This document shows, piece after piece, positions 7,862-22,071 of a stretch of DNA of 22,112 nt. Position numbers and translations under genes: made by a program. How positions within the stretch are numbered: position 1 is the stretch's first letter; every line of letters begins with the position of its first letter. Source of the DNA: a virus. The stretch covers positions 1 to 22,112 of IMG/VR virus record IMGVR_UViG_3300027708_000320. The stretch is one strand, 5' to 3'. The notes under the pieces are model-generated. The model was not told the DNA's origin. It did not search any database and saw nothing but the letters and a program-made list of their open reading frames with translations.

Positions 7862-8833
7862 ATGGGACGTGAGCTACTAATATCTGATCAAGATTTCATA
7901 CAGCTCTGGGAAAAGCATAGATCTCCCAGAAAGATATCTAACGCTACCGGCATATCAGAAAGAGCAGTCTACGCAATAAGAACTAGAATAGAAGCCAACC
8001 ATAAGATAAGTCTCAGCGTAAGAGAGACAAAAGGACCAAGCACCACACACCTAGAGAAGGCAAGACACCACGCAGGGATCACGACAGGAACTGCGATAGT
8101 CTTCTCAGACGCACACTTCTGGCCTGGTATACGCAGCACGGCTTTCAAGGGCTTGCTCTGGGCTATAAAGACTTTAAAGCCTCATGTGATCGTCAACAAC
8201 GGCGATGCCTTTGACGGCGCTGCAATCTCCCGATTCCCACGCATAGGCTGGACGCATATGCCTAACGTCAAGCAGGAACTAGAAGCCTGCCAGGAGGCTC
8301 TAGGAGAGATCGAGAAGGCCACCAAGAAGGCTAGGCATCACACGCAGTTGATCTGGTCCCTGGGCAACCACGACGCGAGGTTTGAGACTCGTCTGGCGCA
8401 GGTAGGACCAGAGTTTGAAGGCGTGTACGGCACGGCTTTAAAGGATCACTTTATGGCTTGGACTCCATGTTGGAGTTGCTGGCTGACTCCAGAGGTGGTG
8501 GTCAAGCATCGGTACAAGAATGGTGTCCACGCCACGCACAACAACACGGTGGGGTCTGGCGTGTCGATTGTGACAGGGCATCTTCATAGTTTGAAGGTAA
8601 CGCCCTACAGCGACTACAACGGCACGCGGTGGGGCGTAGACACGGGTACGCTGGCGGAAACGAACGGACCACAATTCTTAGATTACTTGGAAGACAATCC
8701 TGTAAACTGGAGGTCTGGGTTTGCCGTGTTGACGTTCAGGGATGGCAAGATGCTGTGGCCTGAGCTGGTCAGTAAACACGATGATGGAGTGATTGACTTC
8801 CGTGGTGACCTTATAGATGTGAGTGAATTATGA
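7862..8833 (+). CDS. Metallophosphoesterase with N-terminal HTH-like region (323 aa)
   Basis: Start ATG with GGAGG five bases upstream. Residues about 8-45 (LWEKHRSPRKISNATGIS) look like a helix-turn-helix. The C-terminal part carries a full calcineurin-like metal-binding set: D83xH85 in FSDAHFWPG, NNGDAFDG at 112-119, GNHD at 168-171, and GHLH at 239-242. This is the two-metal centre of phosphoesterases acting on nucleic acids, nucleotides or proteins. The substrate here cannot be told. It is followed by an ATGA-coupled gene. Phage enzymes of this kind are common but mostly uncharacterised. The DNA-binding-like N-terminus makes a nucleic-acid substrate plausible (inference). Confidence 0.85.
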   Translation: MGRELLISDQDFIQLWEKHRSPRKISNATGISERAVYAIRTRIEANHKISLSVRETKGPSTTHLEKARHHAGITTGTAIVFSDAHFWPGIRSTAFKGLLWAIKTLKPHVIVNNGDAFDGAAISRFPRIGWTHMPNVKQELEACQEALGEIEKATKKARHHTQLIWSLGNHDARFETRLAQVGPEFEGVYGTALKDHFMAWTPCWSCWLTPEVVVKHRYKNGVHATHNNTVGSGVSIVTGHLHSLKVTPYSDYNGTRWGVDTGTLAETNGPQFLDYLEDNPVNWRSGFAVLTFRDGKMLWPELVSKHDDGVIDFRGDLIDVSEL

Positions 8834-14474: not shown

Positions 14475-14502
14475 AAAAAAAACCCCGATGCAAGACCGGG
14501 GT
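14475..14502 (-). terminator. Rho-independent terminator (proximal of the pair)
   Basis: On the minus strand the stem ACCCCG/CGGGGT (14502-14497 with 14487-14482, nine-base loop) is followed by eight T (14482-14475). A further hairpin GTCCC-GAGT-GGGAC (14506-14519) precedes it. It ends the early operon just after the 49-aa gene. Confidence 0.85.
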
Positions 14503-14546
14503 CAAGTCCCGAGTGGGACATCTAGGAGACAGCACGCGAGAAAGGT

Positions 14547-15607: not shown

Positions 15608-15901
15608 TTAGATAACGTAAGCGGACTTGTCGTGCCCGTTGATCCAGCGCGGGGACTTGCCACGCCCGGACCAGGTTGCCCCTGATACCGGATCACGGTA
15701 CTTAGGCGGGACGGTCCTGCGTTCTCCCTTGCTCGGCAACGATCCTTTACCGGGCTGTAGCTTCAGATCGGCAGCGGTGATGCTGTAACTGGCGATCATG
15801 GCCTTGCAAGCCTCGATAGCTTGCCGCTTCTCTTCCTGCTTGACTTCCTCTGCTTGACGCAGAATCTCAGCGGCTTTTGCCTGTAGTTCTTCGTACAACA
15901 T
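15608..15901 (-). CDS. H-NS family DNA-binding protein (97 aa)
   Basis: ATG 15901 is chosen over GTG 15910, because GGAG lies eight bases upstream of it. Residues 1-45 form a Glu/Lys-rich helix (EELQAKAAEILRQAEEVKQ), the dimerisation part, then a linker, then the H-NS C-terminal domain with YRDPVSG (68-74) and TWSGRGKSPRWI (76-87). This domain binds the minor groove of AT-rich DNA. Length is that of short betaproteobacterial H-NS proteins, so it looks complete. A phage H-NS homologue can silence or antagonise host H-NS; which applies cannot be told. It sits in the early operon, preceded by a hairpin-rich leader. Confidence 0.9.
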   Translation of the reverse strand: MLYEELQAKAAEILRQAEEVKQEEKRQAIEACKAMIASYSITAADLKLQPGKGSLPSKGERRTVPPKYRDPVSGATWSGRGKSPRWINGHDKSAYVI

Positions 15902-15919: not shown

Positions 15920-16062
15920 GCCCCGAAAGGGGCGATAAGAGGCCCAACACGGGCCGGGAAATGTGCAGGCAAGGCTACCCTACCTGCACGGGTTCAAGAT
16001 CGGTTGTAGGGTGTTCTACGCTCATCAGTGCCGGCACTACCGGTAGACCCTCCGAAGAGGGT
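15920..16062 (-). other. Hairpin-rich leader between the 66-aa gene and the H-NS-like gene
   Basis: Five self-complementary elements lie in about 140 nt: GCCCC-GAAA-GGGGC (15920-15933), GGCCC-AACAC-GGGCC (15941-15955), GTGCAGG/CCTGCAC (15963-15989), palindromes AGTGCCGGCACT (16027-16038) and CTACCGGTAG (16037-16046), and ACCCTC-CGAA-GAGGGT (16047-16062). On the minus-strand RNA the last reads as a six-bp stem capped by a UUCG tetraloop. No ORF or T-run accompanies them. They may attenuate or stabilise the H-NS-like mRNA. Confidence 0.6.
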
Positions 16063-16079
16063 TTCGCGTTGTCAGCAGA

Positions 16080-16280
16080 TCAGCGTTTAGAGTACTGGTT
16101 GAGTGTCTGGAAATGTTTCATGTTCCCGGCCCATGACACCACAACAACACCATTAGCCTTGATACGGCAGAACCTACCCATGGAAGACCTGCTACCCGCA
16201 TACACCCACTGACCTGGTTGCAACTTGTTGAGCTTGTCTTCTGTAGTACTGAAGATGTTGAGTGCTTGTTGATACTGCAT
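16080..16280 (-). CDS. First gene of the leftward early operon, small conserved-type protein (66 aa)
   Basis: ATG 16280 with AGGGG six bases upstream, downstream of a near-consensus promoter. The product has helical N-terminus NIFSTTEDKLNKL, then QPGQWVYAGSRSSMGRF and a beta-rich end (GVVVVSWAGNMKHF). From memory a LQPGQWVYAG motif recurs in short early proteins of phages of betaproteobacteria. Function unknown. Being first in the strongest leftward unit, it is likely made immediately after infection. Confidence 0.75.
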   Translation of the reverse strand: MQYQQALNIFSTTEDKLNKLQPGQWVYAGSRSSMGRFCRIKANGVVVVSWAGNMKHFQTLNQYSKR

Positions 16281-16288
16281 GATGTTCC

Positions 16289-16300
16289 CCTATAAGATAA
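16289..16300 (-). promoter_or_regulatory. Shared 5' leader motif, copy 2 (TTATCTTATAGG on the minus strand)
   Basis: Exact match to the 12-mer at 14031-14042, again just before the first gene of an operon (eight bases before ATG 16280) and containing the start of the AGGGG ribosome-binding site. Confidence 0.5.
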
Positions 16301-16301
16301 T

Positions 16302-16320
16302 CTGTCTTGATCTAAGACAG
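16302..16320 (-). promoter_or_regulatory. Hairpin at the 5' end of the early leftward transcript
   Basis: CTGTCTT (16302-16308) pairs with AAGACAG (16314-16320), loop of five. It begins about eight bases after the -10 box of the promoter at 16328-16356, so it lies at the transcript start. It could be an operator or a 5' stability hairpin. Confidence 0.45.
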
Positions 16321-16327
16321 TGAGAAC

Positions 16328-16375
16328 ATAATATCAATCTGATTATCTCCTGTCAACCGATAATACTTTTTTTTT
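16328..16375 (-). promoter_or_regulatory. Strong minus-strand sigma70 promoter with A-tract UP element
   Basis: On the minus strand TTGACA (16356-16351, perfect -35) is separated by 17 bases from TATTAT (16333-16328, 5/6 match to -10). Directly upstream of the -35 an A9 tract (T9 at 16367-16375 on the plus strand) plus TATTAT forms an UP-like element. Transcription should start near 16320 and drive the early leftward genes from 16280 onward. It is the clearest promoter in the window. Confidence 0.8.
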
Positions 16376-16529
16376 ACTAGGTACTTTCCCTAATGGTTAT
16401 CTATACAGTACTACAGCATCACCGATCCTACCTGTCAACCTGTCCTACCTGTACCACCTGTCAACCTCTCTACACTGTCCTACCTGTACCTACTGTATAT
16501 ATAGTATAGGTAAGGATGTTCCTACCTGT
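16349..16529. repeat. Iteron-like direct repeats in the divergent control region
   Basis: TCCTACCTGT occurs exactly at 16426, 16443, 16478 and 16520; a 15-mer TGTCCTACCTGTACC occurs twice (16441, 16476), 35 bp apart; CCTGTCAACC occurs at 16349, 16431 and 16457. The last contains the complement of TTGACA, so one copy is the -35 box of the early promoter. They are candidate operators or a replication-origin iteron cluster. No plus-strand promoter of quality was found, only an AT-rich stretch near 16494-16508. Confidence 0.7.
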
Positions 16530-16560
16530 ACTGCAGACCCGACGGATGAGGAAGTGAGCG

Positions 16561-16570
16561 GGTGATCACC
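16561..16570. promoter_or_regulatory. Palindrome GGTGATCACC, possible operator
   Basis: A perfect 10-bp palindrome centred on GATC between the repeat cluster and the terminase gene. No other copy was noticed. Dimeric HTH proteins bind sites of this size. The remaining 16571-16757 holds a tandem GAGCACT GAGCACT (16674-16687) and no credible gene. Confidence 0.35.
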
Positions 16571-16757
16571 ACAATCCTCCCTTTCATACGTTTTGGTCGA
16601 TTCTTCTTACACGGGACACTGGCCGTTCCTGCTCTGCTCTAACCGCATCACTGCTTGATCTGTAGACCTGTCTGAGCACTGAGCACTGATCAGGATCGGT
16701 CTGGGCAGTACCACCGACAACCGTGCTACCATCCGAGCACAGCAGTAGGCCCAGGCG

Positions 16758-18599
16758 ATGGGTCATGACCCCCGTGTAGGCGTGCACCCAACGCTTCTCC
16801 CCCCCAAGAAAAAACGGGTTGGATCTATGTTTAATCTAGCGCAGTTCTATAAATTCTGTAGTGAGTTAAAGATTGAGACCAAGGAACATGGTCTTAAGAA
16901 AATGGATAAACTATTAGGTACTCAGACATATATTATGGATGAGATATCTAAAGGTTTACAGGATGACATCCATTTCTTTGTGATATTGAAGGGTAGACAG
17001 TTAGGTATTACTACTATCTCTTTGGCATTGGATCTGTATTGGCATTTTGTACATCCTGGATTACAGGGTACATTGACGACAGACACAGAAGAGAACAGGG
17101 ATATGTTTAGGAGTACCTTGTCTATGTACATAGATGGTCTCCCAAGAGAATATAAAATTCCTATGATTGCTCATAATAGGAATCATCTATCTCTCAAGAA
17201 CAGGTCAAGACTGTTTTACCAGGTTGCTGGGTTGCGCTCTAAGGGGTCTCTGGGGCGCGGTAAGGCCATAACGTACCTGCATGGTACTGAGACATCCAGT
17301 TGGGGTGATGAGGAGGGCCTAGCGTCTCTCTTGGCTTCTCTTGCCGAGACCAACCCGCAGCGGTTGTACTTGTTCGAGAGCACTGCTCGTGGGTTCAATA
17401 TGTTCCACGATATGTATGTGACGGCTAAGAAGGCTAGAACTCAGAGGGCTATCTTCTGTGGCTGGTGGAGAAATGAACTATATTCCGTGCCTGCAGACTC
17501 TGCGGTCTATAAAGTTTATTGGGATGGCAAATTAACTGGGGAAGAAAAAGAGTGGGTGAAGGACATCAAGAAGTTGTACGGTGTGGAGATCAACAGCAGG
17601 CAAATGGCGTGGTGGAGATGGAAGCTGCACGAGGGGATCAAGGACGATGCGCTGATGTACCAGGAGTTTCCTCCTACGGAAGACTACGCATTCGTGATGA
17701 CTGGTACGAGCTTCTTCTCAAATGCCCGGTGTACTGATGCTGCCAAGGCTTCTAAGTCTTTAACGCCGGAGTGTTTCCGTTATGCTTTTGGGGCGTTGTT
17801 CCAAGACACGGACGTTCTGCGCTCTACTGAGAAACTTGGCACGCTCAAGGTTTGGGAGCAGCCGGTAGATTCTGCCTACTACGTCATCGGTGCAGACCCT
17901 GCTTATGGGTCATCCGATTGGGCAGACCGTTTCTCTATCCAAGTCTTCCGTGTTTACGCAGATGGTCTAGAGCAGGTGGCAGAGTTTGCCACTAGCGAGA
18001 TGAACACTTACCAGTTTGCGTGGGTTATTGCCCACCTTGCCGGTGCGTACAAGAACTCTACGCTTAACCTAGAGGTGAACGGGCCTGGTCAGGCAGTCAT
18101 CAACGAGTTGCGTAACCTCAAGAGGATGGCGTCTGCTCAGTCTGGTGGGGCTGGCAAGAACCTGCTAGACGTATTGGGTTCTATGTCCAACTACATCTGG
18201 CGTCGCAACGATACGATGGGTGGGCTTTCTAACTCCATAGGCTTCTTGACGACTAGCCAGACAAAGGAGAGGATGCTCACCTACATGAAAGACTACTTCG
18301 AGCGTGGTCTCATGGACATCAAATCTATGGACCTTCTTGACGAGATGAAGGGCATCGTCCGAGAAGGTGGGTTTATTGGTGCGCCCGGTCGAGGCAAGGA
18401 TGACCGTGTTATTGCGGCAGCGCTGGCAACCGTCGCGTGGGCAGAGCAAGTACAGCCCCGACTCATTGCGATGCGACATACCAGAAAAGTTTCCCACGAC
18501 GAGGAAGTCTCTACTCCTGAGCAACTCGCAGGTGGTCGCAACGTCTCAACCTACCTAAAACGGATTGGGCTATATGGCGACCCCGGCACGACACACTGA
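16758..18599 (+). CDS. terL: Terminase large subunit (613 aa)
   Basis: Packaging motor with ATPase and nuclease. Walker A-like LKGRQLGIT lies near 78-85, the conserved region TYLHGTETSSWGDEE with catalytic E178 near 172-186, and the coupling motif FESTARG near 206-212. The nuclease half carries the acidic residues of VIGADPAYGSSDWADRF (D380) and GRGKDDRVIAAALA near the C-terminus. Both possible starts, 16758 and an in-frame ATG at 16827 (MFNLAQFYKF), have weak ribosome-binding sites; homologues recalled from memory could begin at either. The gene overlaps the next by 26 nt. The first 400 nt are AT-rich, then composition switches abruptly inside the ATPase domain. No obvious small terminase precedes it. 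Confidence 0.93.
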   Translation: MGHDPRVGVHPTLLPPKKKRVGSMFNLAQFYKFCSELKIETKEHGLKKMDKLLGTQTYIMDEISKGLQDDIHFFVILKGRQLGITTISLALDLYWHFVHPGLQGTLTTDTEENRDMFRSTLSMYIDGLPREYKIPMIAHNRNHLSLKNRSRLFYQVAGLRSKGSLGRGKAITYLHGTETSSWGDEEGLASLLASLAETNPQRLYLFESTARGFNMFHDMYVTAKKARTQRAIFCGWWRNELYSVPADSAVYKVYWDGKLTGEEKEWVKDIKKLYGVEINSRQMAWWRWKLHEGIKDDALMYQEFPPTEDYAFVMTGTSFFSNARCTDAAKASKSLTPECFRYAFGALFQDTDVLRSTEKLGTLKVWEQPVDSAYYVIGADPAYGSSDWADRFSIQVFRVYADGLEQVAEFATSEMNTYQFAWVIAHLAGAYKNSTLNLEVNGPGQAVINELRNLKRMASAQSGGAGKNLLDVLGSMSNYIWRRNDTMGGLSNSIGFLTTSQTKERMLTYMKDYFERGLMDIKSMDLLDEMKGIVREGGFIGAPGRGKDDRVIAAALATVAWAEQVQPRLIAMRHTRKVSHDEEVSTPEQLAGGRNVSTYLKRIGLYGDPGTTH

Positions 18600-19380
18600 C
18601 CTCACCATCGTTGCCATCTACGGGCATAACGACGGCTCTAGCGCGATTCCCAGCCTCGTACACAGCCTGCGGGAACTACCCGGTAGCAAAGGTCTGCTGA
18701 TCTCGCCGGATCGCCCTGCGACCCTGCCAGACCACATAGCGTGGAAGCAGACTGCACCGCTGGACTACTACCAGTATTCCATCTTCTGTATGTACGCCCT
18801 GCAGCACTACATCGAGACTGAATACTGCTTGGTTGTCCAAGACGATGGCTGGGTTCTCAACGGTGAGAACTTCACGGATGTCTACTACGAGTACGACTAT
18901 GTGGGCGCTCCTACCCACATGGGTATAAAAGGCGAGCAAGCGTTCTTCAACTTCACCTGGCAGACAGAGACAGATGTGACCGTTGTGCAGAACGGCGGGT
19001 TCTCTCTGCGTAGCCGCAAGTTCTTGCAGGCTCCCAGCAAGCACGGCATCTTGCACAAACTCTTTAACGTCCAGCCGTATATCAACGAGGATGTACAGCT
19101 CTCAGGGCTGCTGCGTCCCCAGTTGGAGAACGTGGGCGTGAGATATGCCCCTAACCACATTGCCAAACAATTCTCGGTGGAGTACCTGGGGCCGGGTTTC
19201 CACGATGACCTAGAGTTTGATACCCTTGTCGGGCATCACGCTACGTCCAGAAAGCTGGTGGGCCACAAGCACATTTCATGCACTCTTTCACCTGAGCTTG
19301 TCCAGAAGGTCTACGGCGAGATAGAGTTCTTTATGTTCCTGAGCCGCATCGGATACAGAATTGAACACCGTAATTCCTAA
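18574..19380 (+). CDS. DUF5672-like glycosyltransferase (268 aa)
   Basis: ATG 18574 is chosen over TTG 18565. The N-terminal strand TIVAIYGHNDG, the acidic motif VVQDDGW (87-93), YDYVGAPTHMG and VVQNGGFSLRSRKFLQ, and then NEDVQLSGLLRPQLE and a final GHHAT follow the order I recall for the DUF5672 family of putative GT-A transferases. The QDDGW site would bind nucleotide-sugar and metal. The gene overlaps the terminase end, an unusual neighbour for a transferase. The target is unknown. With the methyltransferase at 9048 and the GT at 10045 it may be part of one modification pathway. Confidence 0.8.
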   Translation: MATPARHTDLTIVAIYGHNDGSSAIPSLVHSLRELPGSKGLLISPDRPATLPDHIAWKQTAPLDYYQYSIFCMYALQHYIETEYCLVVQDDGWVLNGENFTDVYYEYDYVGAPTHMGIKGEQAFFNFTWQTETDVTVVQNGGFSLRSRKFLQAPSKHGILHKLFNVQPYINEDVQLSGLLRPQLENVGVRYAPNHIAKQFSVEYLGPGFHDDLEFDTLVGHHATSRKLVGHKHISCTLSPELVQKVYGEIEFFMFLSRIGYRIEHRNS

Positions 19381-19747
19381 ACACGAACTGAAAATGTTGA
19401 TGAGAAGGTTCATCAACGACCAGTCTCGTGGCATCTCGCTGGAAAAGTTTGCCGAACTGTGCGGCATGAAAAAGAGAACATTTGCAGACGTTTTCGTATA
19501 CGAGAACACTAAACTCACAGAGCAGGTTCAGCGTCGCGTATCCTCCGCCTACCAGCACTGGCGCGACGGCAACGTCAGGATCATGAAGCGTCCTGACAAG
19601 ACTCAATACGTTGACTATCGTAAGACACCGCAACCCGTTATCATTCCACACATGGGGATTACTCACACACCAGACGGATTTAAATTATCTATTGGGCCAC
19701 GCAATCGTCACGACTATTCTTATTCCACTCTGGATGACATCTTATGA
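19361..19747 (+). CDS. Helix-turn-helix phage protein next to the terminase (128 aa)
   Basis: TTG 19361 with GGA seven bases upstream overlaps the previous gene by 20 nt; ATG 19394 is an alternative without a ribosome-binding site. Residues about 18-60 (GISLEKFAELCGMKKRTFAD, LTEQVQRRVSSAYQHW) form an HTH-like DNA-binding domain. The C-terminal half is basic and beta-rich (QYVDYRKTPQPVIIPHMG) and ends in an acidic STLDDIL. Neighbourhood of terminase and portal and the HTH make a small terminase subunit conceivable, though it lies downstream of the large subunit, so this is only a suggestion. Confidence 0.75.
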   Translation: MNTVIPKHELKMLMRRFINDQSRGISLEKFAELCGMKKRTFADVFVYENTKLTEQVQRRVSSAYQHWRDGNVRIMKRPDKTQYVDYRKTPQPVIIPHMGITHTPDGFKLSIGPRNRHDYSYSTLDDIL

Positions 19748-20205: not shown

Positions 20206-21800
20206 GAATTCCTAGCTCACCTCTAGATCGAGAACTATTCTTTCTCGACGTCATTGAGAAGTGTTCCGTCTCCATGGCAGACCGGCGCACTGACTACGGT
20301 GGGCTACGCTCTTGGTATCTCTTTGGTAACGGGCCGGACGAAGCGCCGGCTCTCTATAACAAAATCTTTCCGCACATAGATCAGCTATCTTCTTTTCTCT
20401 ACTCTGCCGAGACCACGCGGTTCTCTATCGATCTCGGTGCAGACGTAGCAGAGGAAGAACAAGCCAAGCTGCCGGTTCTAACCCGCGCACTAAACGACGA
20501 GTGGCTCAACAGCAACGCTGACCAAGTGTTTTCCTCCGCCGTGTCGTGGGCGCTGGCCTACAACACGACGTTTGTCAAACTCGTCTACCGCAACGGAATC
20601 AACCCGTACCTAGTCGAGCCAAGCACGATCGGCGTGTTGCGCGAAGATGTGCCGTACACGGACCGCCAAGAGGCGCTGATCCAGACGTACTACATCACCA
20701 AGTCTGAGTTGTACAACCGGCTCTACAGCCACCCTAGACGGGAAGAGCTGGTCAACCGCGTGACCTATGCCCAGCACGACCGCACGGAAGTTGCTAACGG
20801 CGTGCAGCGCATCATTATGAGCCAGACGGACCCGACTCTGTATGGCAACGTCAACCTTGATCTGTCTGGCGGCAATCGCTACAAAGCCCAAGTCTCTGAG
20901 CCAACCGTGCAGATGACGGAACTCTGGCTGTGGAACGACGACACCAACGACTATCAGGTTGTCACCAAGGCAGACCCTGATATCATCATCTACGACAGGC
21001 CGGGTGAAACAGTTTTCCTAAAAGGGGAGCTGCCTTTTGTGCAGGTTTGCCCCTTACCCTTGTACGACTACTTCTGGGGTCAGTCAGAAGTGTCGCGTCT
21101 GATCTATCTCCAGCAGATGCGTAACAAACGCATGACGGAGATTCTTGACCTGCTATCCAAGCAGGTGAACCCACCGTCTGCCCTCATTGGCTTTACGGGG
21201 ATCCTAGATGAGAAGAACTTCGCTCTTAACCGCGCTGGAGGAATTCTCTCTACCGATATGCCAAATGCGAAGGTTGAGAAACTTGCACCTCAAGTCCCGC
21301 CCGACTTGTTCCGTGAGATCCAAGAGATCGATGGAATGTTTGAAGAAGCATCTGGCATCGTCTCTGTCTTGCAAGGCCGGGGTGAAGCAGGGGTAAGATC
21401 TAGCGGTCACGCCTCGCAACTTGCCCGTCTGGGGTCATCCAGAGCCAAGAAACGGGCGTTAGTGATCGAAGATGCGCTGGAAAAGATGGCTACGCTGTAT
21501 CTCAAGCTGATGCAGTGCTATTCCGACACGCATTACACCGACATCAAGGGCAATCGGTTCATTGCAGAGCAATTGCCTAAGAATTACGCCGTAAAAGTGG
21601 ACGCACACTCCAATTCTCCAATCTTTATGGAGGATACGAGGCAATTGGCGTTCAATCTCCTCAAAGCAGGTGCAATTGACAAGGAATCCTTGCTAGACTT
21701 GCTGGAACCGCCAATGAAGCAGCAGTTGAAAGAGCGTCTCAAGAAGATGGAGGCCGCTCAAGCCCAGCAAGCCGCTATGCAGCCTCTTAAGGAGAAGTAA
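20202..21800 (+). CDS. Portal protein (head-tail connector, 532 aa)
   Basis: ATGA coupled to the zinc-ribbon gene. Length, position after the terminase and the long helical C-terminus fit a portal. Motifs seen include YNKIFPHIDQLSSFLYSAET near 50-70, FSSAVSWALAYNTTFVKL near 110-127, PLYDYFWGQSEVSRLIYLQQ near 285-305, and the helical crown GEAGVRSSGHASQLARLGS near 395-415. It would form the dodecameric ring through which DNA is packaged. The C-terminus is Gln/Ala/Lys-rich (QAQQAAMQPLKEK). Exact family (siphovirus-like or podovirus-like) is not determinable by eye. Confidence 0.88.
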   Translation: MRIPSSPLDRELFFLDVIEKCSVSMADRRTDYGGLRSWYLFGNGPDEAPALYNKIFPHIDQLSSFLYSAETTRFSIDLGADVAEEEQAKLPVLTRALNDEWLNSNADQVFSSAVSWALAYNTTFVKLVYRNGINPYLVEPSTIGVLREDVPYTDRQEALIQTYYITKSELYNRLYSHPRREELVNRVTYAQHDRTEVANGVQRIIMSQTDPTLYGNVNLDLSGGNRYKAQVSEPTVQMTELWLWNDDTNDYQVVTKADPDIIIYDRPGETVFLKGELPFVQVCPLPLYDYFWGQSEVSRLIYLQQMRNKRMTEILDLLSKQVNPPSALIGFTGILDEKNFALNRAGGILSTDMPNAKVEKLAPQVPPDLFREIQEIDGMFEEASGIVSVLQGRGEAGVRSSGHASQLARLGSSRAKKRALVIEDALEKMATLYLKLMQCYSDTHYTDIKGNRFIAEQLPKNYAVKVDAHSNSPIFMEDTRQLAFNLLKAGAIDKESLLDLLEPPMKQQLKERLKKMEAAQAQQAAMQPLKEK

Positions 21801-21961
21801 TGGCAATGCAAAACACCACCCGCACGGGTGATCAGCCAAGAATTACGACAAAGACATTGGACAAACCTACAACTCCATCCTTGACGTATCGCACACAGAC
21901 GAATAGGATGGGCAATGCAGGAAATTCATCCCGCATGACTCGGGACTATTCCCGAAAGTGA
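21800..21961 (+). CDS. Small protein after the portal (53 aa)
   Basis: ATG overlaps the portal stop (TAATG), with AAGGAG a few bases upstream, one of the stronger ribosome-binding sites in the window. The product is Thr/Arg/Asn-rich and looks unstructured (MAMQNTTRTGDQPRITTKT, ending TRDYSRK), lacking acidic domains. It is followed after seven bases by the first tiny basic ORF. No family recognised; probably a minor assembly or scaffold-like factor. Confidence 0.7.
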   Translation: MAMQNTTRTGDQPRITTKTLDKPTTPSLTYRTQTNRMGNAGNSSRMTRDYSRK

Positions 21962-21968
21962 GGTTTCA

Positions 21969-22010
21969 ATGTATCGCACCAGCAAACGCGGTCGTAAAAC
22001 CCGCCGCTAA
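21969..22010 (+). CDS. Tiny arginine-rich peptide (13 aa)
   Basis: ATG TAT ... TAA encodes MYRTSKRGRKTRR, seven of 13 residues Lys/Arg, with an AGG five bases upstream. It shares RGRKxRR with the next tiny ORF, which suggests the pair is real rather than chance. It could bind nucleic acid. It is below the size of most gene calls, so confidence is limited. Confidence 0.4.
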   Translation: MYRTSKRGRKTRR

Positions 22011-22071
22011 TTGAGTTTGATGGGTATGGCTGCTTGCCCTTACAAGTGGCCCTCTTTACTTGGAGTATGCC

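Follow-up and report, generated by a model that had tools for sequence, protein, structure and literature searches.

Arrays of short protein-binding sites at divergent early phage promoters are well known from lambda-type operators and tandem operator boxes. Short direct repeats also make up the origin of the PLE satellite, in which three ~30-bp repeats are bound by the element-encoded RepA (PMC8263062). The junction described here lies in a single IMG/VR virus record of 22,112 bases, all of which was analysed (the window), and it resembles each of these systems in part. As in phage operator arrays, repeated and partly symmetric short sites are found by an early promoter between divergent operons, but the array is located 70-173 bp upstream (to the right) of the -35 element, without overlap with the promoter elements, and it has candidate regulators in place of an assigned cognate repressor. 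As in the PLE origin, so far as the available part of its description goes, short direct repeats with inner symmetry occupy a non-coding stretch; here, however, the words measure 8-10 bp and no Rep was found.

Two further sets of phages invite comparison. EBPR podovirus 1 (JF412294) also encodes an H-NS-like protein and RecT/exonuclease genes, according to the available part of its description (PMC3097231), although its H-NS-like protein is only 35% identical to that of the window and it carries a helicase, Cro and its own TerS/TerL/portal order. The same part of that source predicts the H-NS sites of this phage by a TCGANNAATT pattern and not by such an array (PMC3097231). The metagenomic phages MW202753 and MW202825 from Manatee Spring have terminases 77-78% identical to that of the window, the same early/late layout and exonuclease/RecT genes, but they have no H-NS-like gene, no such junction array and, at up to three mismatches, no copy of the 23-bp site discussed below. 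Neither the array nor this 23-bp site is described in the available parts of PMC3088659, PMC8263062, PMC3097231, PMC9959647 and PMC7074111. A literature query combining the repeat letters CTACCTGT with 'phage' gave unrelated titles among the matches listed, which does not in itself establish that the array is undescribed.

The early genes of the window run leftward, from 16280 down to 9802, and the late genes run rightward from 16827. This places the repeat array (16426-16529, + strand) in the only divergent switch of gene direction, as the first-pass annotation had stated; the switch near 9.7-9.8 kb is convergent. The first late gene encodes the large terminase subunit (16827-18599, +; Pfam PF17289 in a longer frame, phrog_2). 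The early side begins with a gene for a 66-aa protein (16080-16280, -; phrog_21585) and also encodes a RecE/YqaJ-type exonuclease, RecT, an HNH/endonuclease VII-like protein, an H-NS-like protein and proteins with no assigned function. Some of the underlying ORF lists were produced by a greedy longest-frame rule or mechanically and include spurious frames. The gene adjacent to the junction is swapped between relatives, being the 66-aa phrog_21585 protein, an ArdC-like antirestriction protein or one of two kinds of cysteine-rich proteins, and its identity bears no relation to the array word.

The array consists of four exact copies of TCCTACCTGT with weaker ACCTGT copies in between. The exact copies start at 16426, 16443, 16478 and 16520 on the + strand, at spacings of 17, 35 and 42, and none occurs elsewhere in the 22,112-nt window. 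Allowing one mismatch adds a single match at 8398 (-), giving five in the whole window as against a mean of 1.12 and a maximum of four in dinucleotide shuffles. When the 153-bp junction was dinucleotide-shuffled 5000 times, the exact 10-mer never appeared more than once, and no shuffle reached four copies. The 15-mer TGTCCTACCTGTACC is duplicated at 16441-16455 and 16476-16490, an offset of 35 bp, and is likewise absent from the rest of the window. An AT-rich inverted repeat, ACCTACTGTATATATAGTATAGGT, is located inside the array at 16488-16511 and has counterparts in relatives, such as CCTATATATATATAGG. The A/T content of the array is 55%, while 69 of the 101 bases at 16290-16390 alongside it are A or T. 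Four exact repeats, a 15-mer duplicated 35 bp apart and AT-rich flanking DNA had all been reported in the initial annotation, and all three hold. The repeat observation itself is confirmed, and its location is meaningful.

Immediately to the left of the array is a sigma-70-like leftward promoter (16328-16356, -), in which a TTGACA -35 element (16356-16351) is separated by a 17-bp spacer from a TATTAT -10 element (16333-16328). The good consensus match suggests that it acts as the early promoter; the 66-aa first early gene, starting at 16280, follows it. A T-run on the + strand (A-tract on the coding strand) at 16363-16380 is positioned between this promoter and the 23-bp site, is seen in most clade rows and may be UP-element-like by virtue of its position. 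To the right of the array the leader is variable among relatives until two conserved blocks are reached in an alignment of 25 leaders. The first, ACCGTGCTACCATCCG (16720-16735, +), about 190 bp right of the array, could belong to a packaging site or be a late promoter, in which case TGCTACCAT would be its extended -10-like element. The second (16766-16806, +) comprises TGACCCCCGTG..GCGTGCACCCAACG followed by a C-run and directly precedes the terminase gene; the roles suggested for both blocks are putative. By-eye reading of the junctions of relatives revealed no convincing promoter that overlaps the array; the scan for the -35 element across junction rows, given below, covered its left side.

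The array recurs in relatives. A terminase search confirmed at least 598 relatives among 600 stretches examined, of which the best 80 were kept; most of their contigs are fragments, and the near-identical contigs L004, L101, L122 and L130 represent the phage of the window itself or a close one and add little. Among these best 80, the relatives with ~91% identical terminases that reach far enough upstream mostly carry a CTACCTGTA-like array at the equivalent position, often with a period of 9-11 bp, and the general unit can be written as TACNNGTA. The TCCTACCTGT form with longer spacing is found in the window and its near relatives L004, L005, L128 and L179. L152 and L162 have a different array word, GGTGTACAGTA, and the type C relatives L181, L183, L172 and L176 have no array (the clade labels A, Ag, B and C were assigned by eye). 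A crude test for ACCTGT clusters over 136 loci was positive only in the window's own loci, near relatives and L015, which shows that the exact array word varies. The exact TACCTGTA or its reverse complement TACAGGTA is confined to the junction in the window (3 of 3), G005 (5 of 5) and G006 (3 of 3); G014 has one copy at the junction and one elsewhere, and G022 has none. Across viral contigs, tandem CTACCTGTA was found in 34 stretches, 15 of which are known clade loci. Seventeen of the 19 others look coding by open frame (two of the frames being only 78 and 88 aa), and the remaining two, L246 and L248, look non-coding and unrelated.

Could such an array be a decaying or slipping simple repeat with no function of its own? 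Copy number and spacing do differ among relatives, as would be expected. Against this, the unit is kept in place despite 9% divergence of the terminase protein and a leader that has mostly changed and aligns poorly, and the exact unit is absent outside the junction in three genomes. A functionless repeat is accordingly judged improbable.

Between the early promoter and the array, at 16388-16410 (+), is a conserved and partly symmetric 23-bp site, CCCTAATGGTTATCTATACAGTA, the sole match in the window at up to three mismatches. The pattern CCCTAATGNNNATCNNTACAGTA retrieved 56 stretches from the viral collection, 43 of them distinct after identical segments were removed (segments and rows being deduplicated by sequence and not by phylogeny). 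Across 84,980 bacterial and archaeal species genomes it retrieved one stretch, in Halorientalis, which is taken for a chance match. In 15 of 50 junction rows the TTGACA is exactly 31 bp from the 23-bp site, and in six more it is at other nearby distances; the remaining rows are without such an exact -35 element. The site also occurs near early/late junctions, between divergent genes and upstream of early promoters, in phage groups whose terminases fall in no cluster with those of the window family, namely L143/L158/L154/L137, L144/L150/L168, L151/L160 and L167/L185/L159 (grouped by eye from gene content). Approximately five phage groups with different terminases and replication genes thus have it at the early/late junction, and its sharing by unrelated phages is the more unusual part of the findings. 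Because it is nearly absent from cellular genomes, the site could serve as a marker for such junctions in metagenomes. By comparison, G007-G013, which are seven longer records from the 80% terminase group, lack it at up to two mismatches.

The form of the site fits a protein target. Eighteen variants were counted over 51 junctions, some with a reversed centre (for example GTATATCCATAC versus GTATGGATATAC), and in L151/L160 the entire site appears by eye to point the other way with respect to the TerS-like and early genes; a roughly symmetric protein-binding site could accommodate both. The LexA box is CTGT-N8-ACAG, and in many relatives the 23-bp site shares the outline TGT-N8-ACA, although its left half is ATGT instead, or ATGG in the window. 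A LexA box proper was rejected for the window, where 16281-16830 holds no exact match and one place with a single mismatch, at 16401. The site is not tied to one replication module, since it is found both with and without a DnaB helicase gene. Among 13 records, DnaB_C is present in the site-bearing G001, G002 and G004 and absent from the site-bearing G015; in the window family it is found in 0 of 9 records, seven of which carry the site (G000, G003, G005, G006, G014, G022 and G023). Two side observations concern individual junctions. In L143 and L158 the early/late junction contains, just right of the 23-bp site, a parS-like sequence equal or nearly equal, respectively, to the bacterial parS consensus TGTTTCACGTGAAACA. 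G002 has a copy of the 23-bp junction close to either end (356 and 40633 of 41027). The two copies differ slightly, as though assembly of a circular genome had run past its start with sequence from two strains.

Taken together, these features are best read as an operator-like, protein-binding control array of the early/late region, a reading held tentatively and with not quite even confidence. It is favoured because the early promoter adjoins the array, the unit is conserved in place and the 23-bp site is independent of the replication module. As in an operator, the repeats are found at an early promoter with a consensus match, between divergent operons, and they persist in place in relatives. 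Repeats, in-place conservation, promoter match and divergent layout can all be read from the DNA. Binding by a protein, its action on transcription and the identity of the binder are what we infer. The leftward early promoter would fire first; a DNA-binding protein could then occupy the TACNNGTA-type sites and the AT-rich inverted repeat, alongside a binder of the 23-bp site. The resulting nucleoprotein complex might modulate the early promoter and help to keep early and late transcription apart. Because there is no overlap between the array and the early promoter, it would not obviously act by simply blocking RNA polymerase, and to its right there is no more than a possible late promoter. Also weighing against the control reading, TACCTGTA at up to one mismatch exceeds shuffles at p<0.01 in only 11 of 25 loci and fails to do so in the other 14, and the four type C relatives and the two complete records MW202753 and MW202825 have no array. 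The first-pass annotation had offered 'origin or operator array' as alternatives. Its operator half gained ground from the early promoter 70 bp to the left and from the retention of the unit in relatives, while its origin half was neither established nor refuted. A control function would make the array a marker of the early/late switch in a large family of uncultivated phages, and a bait for their regulator.

The best phage-encoded candidates for the binder would be the H-NS-like early protein and a helix-turn-helix protein encoded behind the terminase, and a host protein is also possible. The H-NS-like protein (15608-15901, -; PF00816, E 1.8e-10) is a candidate partner; H-NS nucleation sites are AT-rich and TpA-rich stretches, and the AT-rich inverted repeat might be one. 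Its gene is found in 34 of the 56 rows and is absent from 22. It accompanies 33 of the 36 array-bearing rows, and the early side of the three misses amounts to only 375, 439 and 850 bp. The 34th positive row, L186, has no 23-bp site within the 700 bp searched, and the other negative rows comprise three of type C, three whose sequence stops short of the array, and 13 from the 80% terminase group or from other groups. In tblastn searches the gene is present in 6 of 6 array genomes versus 0 of 7 others, and a scan of viral contigs for H-NS yielded only 10 near relatives. In a terminase tree of 27 rows, however, type C is sister to the array-bearing group, so that one change suffices to explain the co-occurrence, which is therefore weak and not independent evidence. 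Furthermore, array types A and B, which have two different array words, go with similar DNA-binding regions in the H-NS-like protein. H-NS thus does not explain the specificity of the array, and its role as the setter of the array word was set aside as unsupported.

The second candidate is a 128-aa helix-turn-helix protein (19361-19747, +), whose gene is found with the terminase gene in nearly all relatives and whose product could be either a small terminase subunit or a Cro/CI-like regulator. HTH_3 is matched by 12 of 47 family members at E<=0.05, the window's own member not being among them. Its AlphaFold model has a mean pLDDT of 83, and Cro/CI-type domains are among the top structural matches to its N-terminal part, at E >0.1 in the PDB, with no match reaching E 0.001. 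Its recognition helix is not the same in the window as in other array-bearing relatives. Neither candidate tracks the array word.

An extension of the control reading treats the 23-bp site and the variable array as a single, undescribed and virus-specific control site. A conserved factor still to be found would read the 23-bp site, the array would confer specificity on each phage, and the whole would perhaps serve as both origin and operator in phages without replisome genes. This is possible, although on the unlikely side. It draws on the sharing of the 23-bp site by phage groups that differ in terminase and replication genes, and on its near absence from bacterial and archaeal genomes.

A replication origin is the less likely alternative. 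Here the repeats would be iterons, the inverted repeat and promoter region would melt, the host replisome would start synthesis and RecE/RecT would carry on. The direct repeats and inverted repeat do resemble iteron origins, and in eight of nine genomes the junction ranks first or nearly first in instability among 100-bp stretches (at most 0.2% of them being weaker), with G001 as the exception. In complete or near-complete relatives, the minimum of the cumulative GC skew, with counting begun at the junction, falls at the junction or close by. GC skew was among the checks proposed in the first-pass annotation, but melting and skew alike are confounded with the promoter and the flip of gene direction. 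The same annotation had seen no recognisable replication proteins, which agrees with the scanned early proteins: DnaB_C and Rep_3 (PF01051) have no match in the window record, Rep_3 initiators number 0 of 13 records, and no initiator was detected among the scanned early proteins of the window or among ten each of MW202753 and G003. Any origin would therefore depend on host factors, given that neither DnaB_C nor Rep_3 was found in the window-family records searched. The stretch 16281-16830 contains no DnaA box (TTWTNCACA) at up to one mismatch, and neither IHF nor parS sites were found there. In addition, the array word changes in close relatives or vanishes, as in type C, some of which keep RecE (L183). 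Should the junction nevertheless be an origin, replication would begin there in phages that seem to have recombination genes only and no helicase, and their mode of replication would be directly testable. As a separate observation, an early protein of G003 (21404-22039, -; L211:1404-2039) gives a weak PF02767 match (E 4.2e-5, 24.2 bits, cut-off 27) and is perhaps a phage sliding clamp, this being the central domain of the DNA polymerase III beta subunit.

In phage lambda the R sites of cosB are docking sites for the small terminase subunit, and the array could by analogy belong to a packaging site, with the conserved block before the terminase gene as the cutting site. In favour of this, the array is about 300 bp before the terminase gene, the very conserved block is directly in front of that gene, and a family-wide helix-turn-helix protein is encoded behind it. 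Yet that protein is only weakly Cro/CI-like, and no ACCTGT array was found by the crude cluster test in the relatives of the 80% terminase group. Contig ends, which need not be virion ends, fall 110, 111, 115, 149 and 189 bp from the start of the block; as these are different bases, no single cut is visible. A cos site marked by shared contig ends was sought and not seen, the ends being scattered. Packaging is judged improbable. An RNA-level element, in which UACCUGU words in the late leader transcript would serve as targets for a small RNA or a protein, is the least credible proposal of all: the repeats would be transcribed if a late promoter were left of the array, but the possible late promoter at 16720-16735 is to its right, the array has no credible Rfam match and the leader pieces tested fold no better than shuffles.

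Elsewhere, the early region does contain matches to known structured RNAs. Within the window, a poorly coding stretch at 14475-14531 (-) gives a weak match to the Betaproteobacteria toxic small RNA (29.8 bits versus a cut-off of 50), and similarly weak matches occur in L010, L122, L128, L179, L193, L156, L170, L199 and L009. Type II hammerhead ribozymes are common in bacteria, and hammerheads are also found in phage intergenic regions, as the available part of PMC3088659 describes. The window has a type II hammerhead match (RF02276) at 16010-16069 (-), in the gap that separates the first early gene from the H-NS-like gene on the early transcript, scoring 36 bits against a cut-off of 37; the family is above cut-off in L005 (43.2 bits), L189 (40.5), L010 (39.4), L194 (39.3) and L009 (38.1). 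The Betaproteobacteria-1 RNA (RF02932, cut-off 49.4 bits) is matched inside the early regions of L179 (1306-1423, -; 104.5 bits), L009 (1832-1949, -; 105.2) and L181 (1-108, -; 74.5), a hint at betaproteobacterial hosts.
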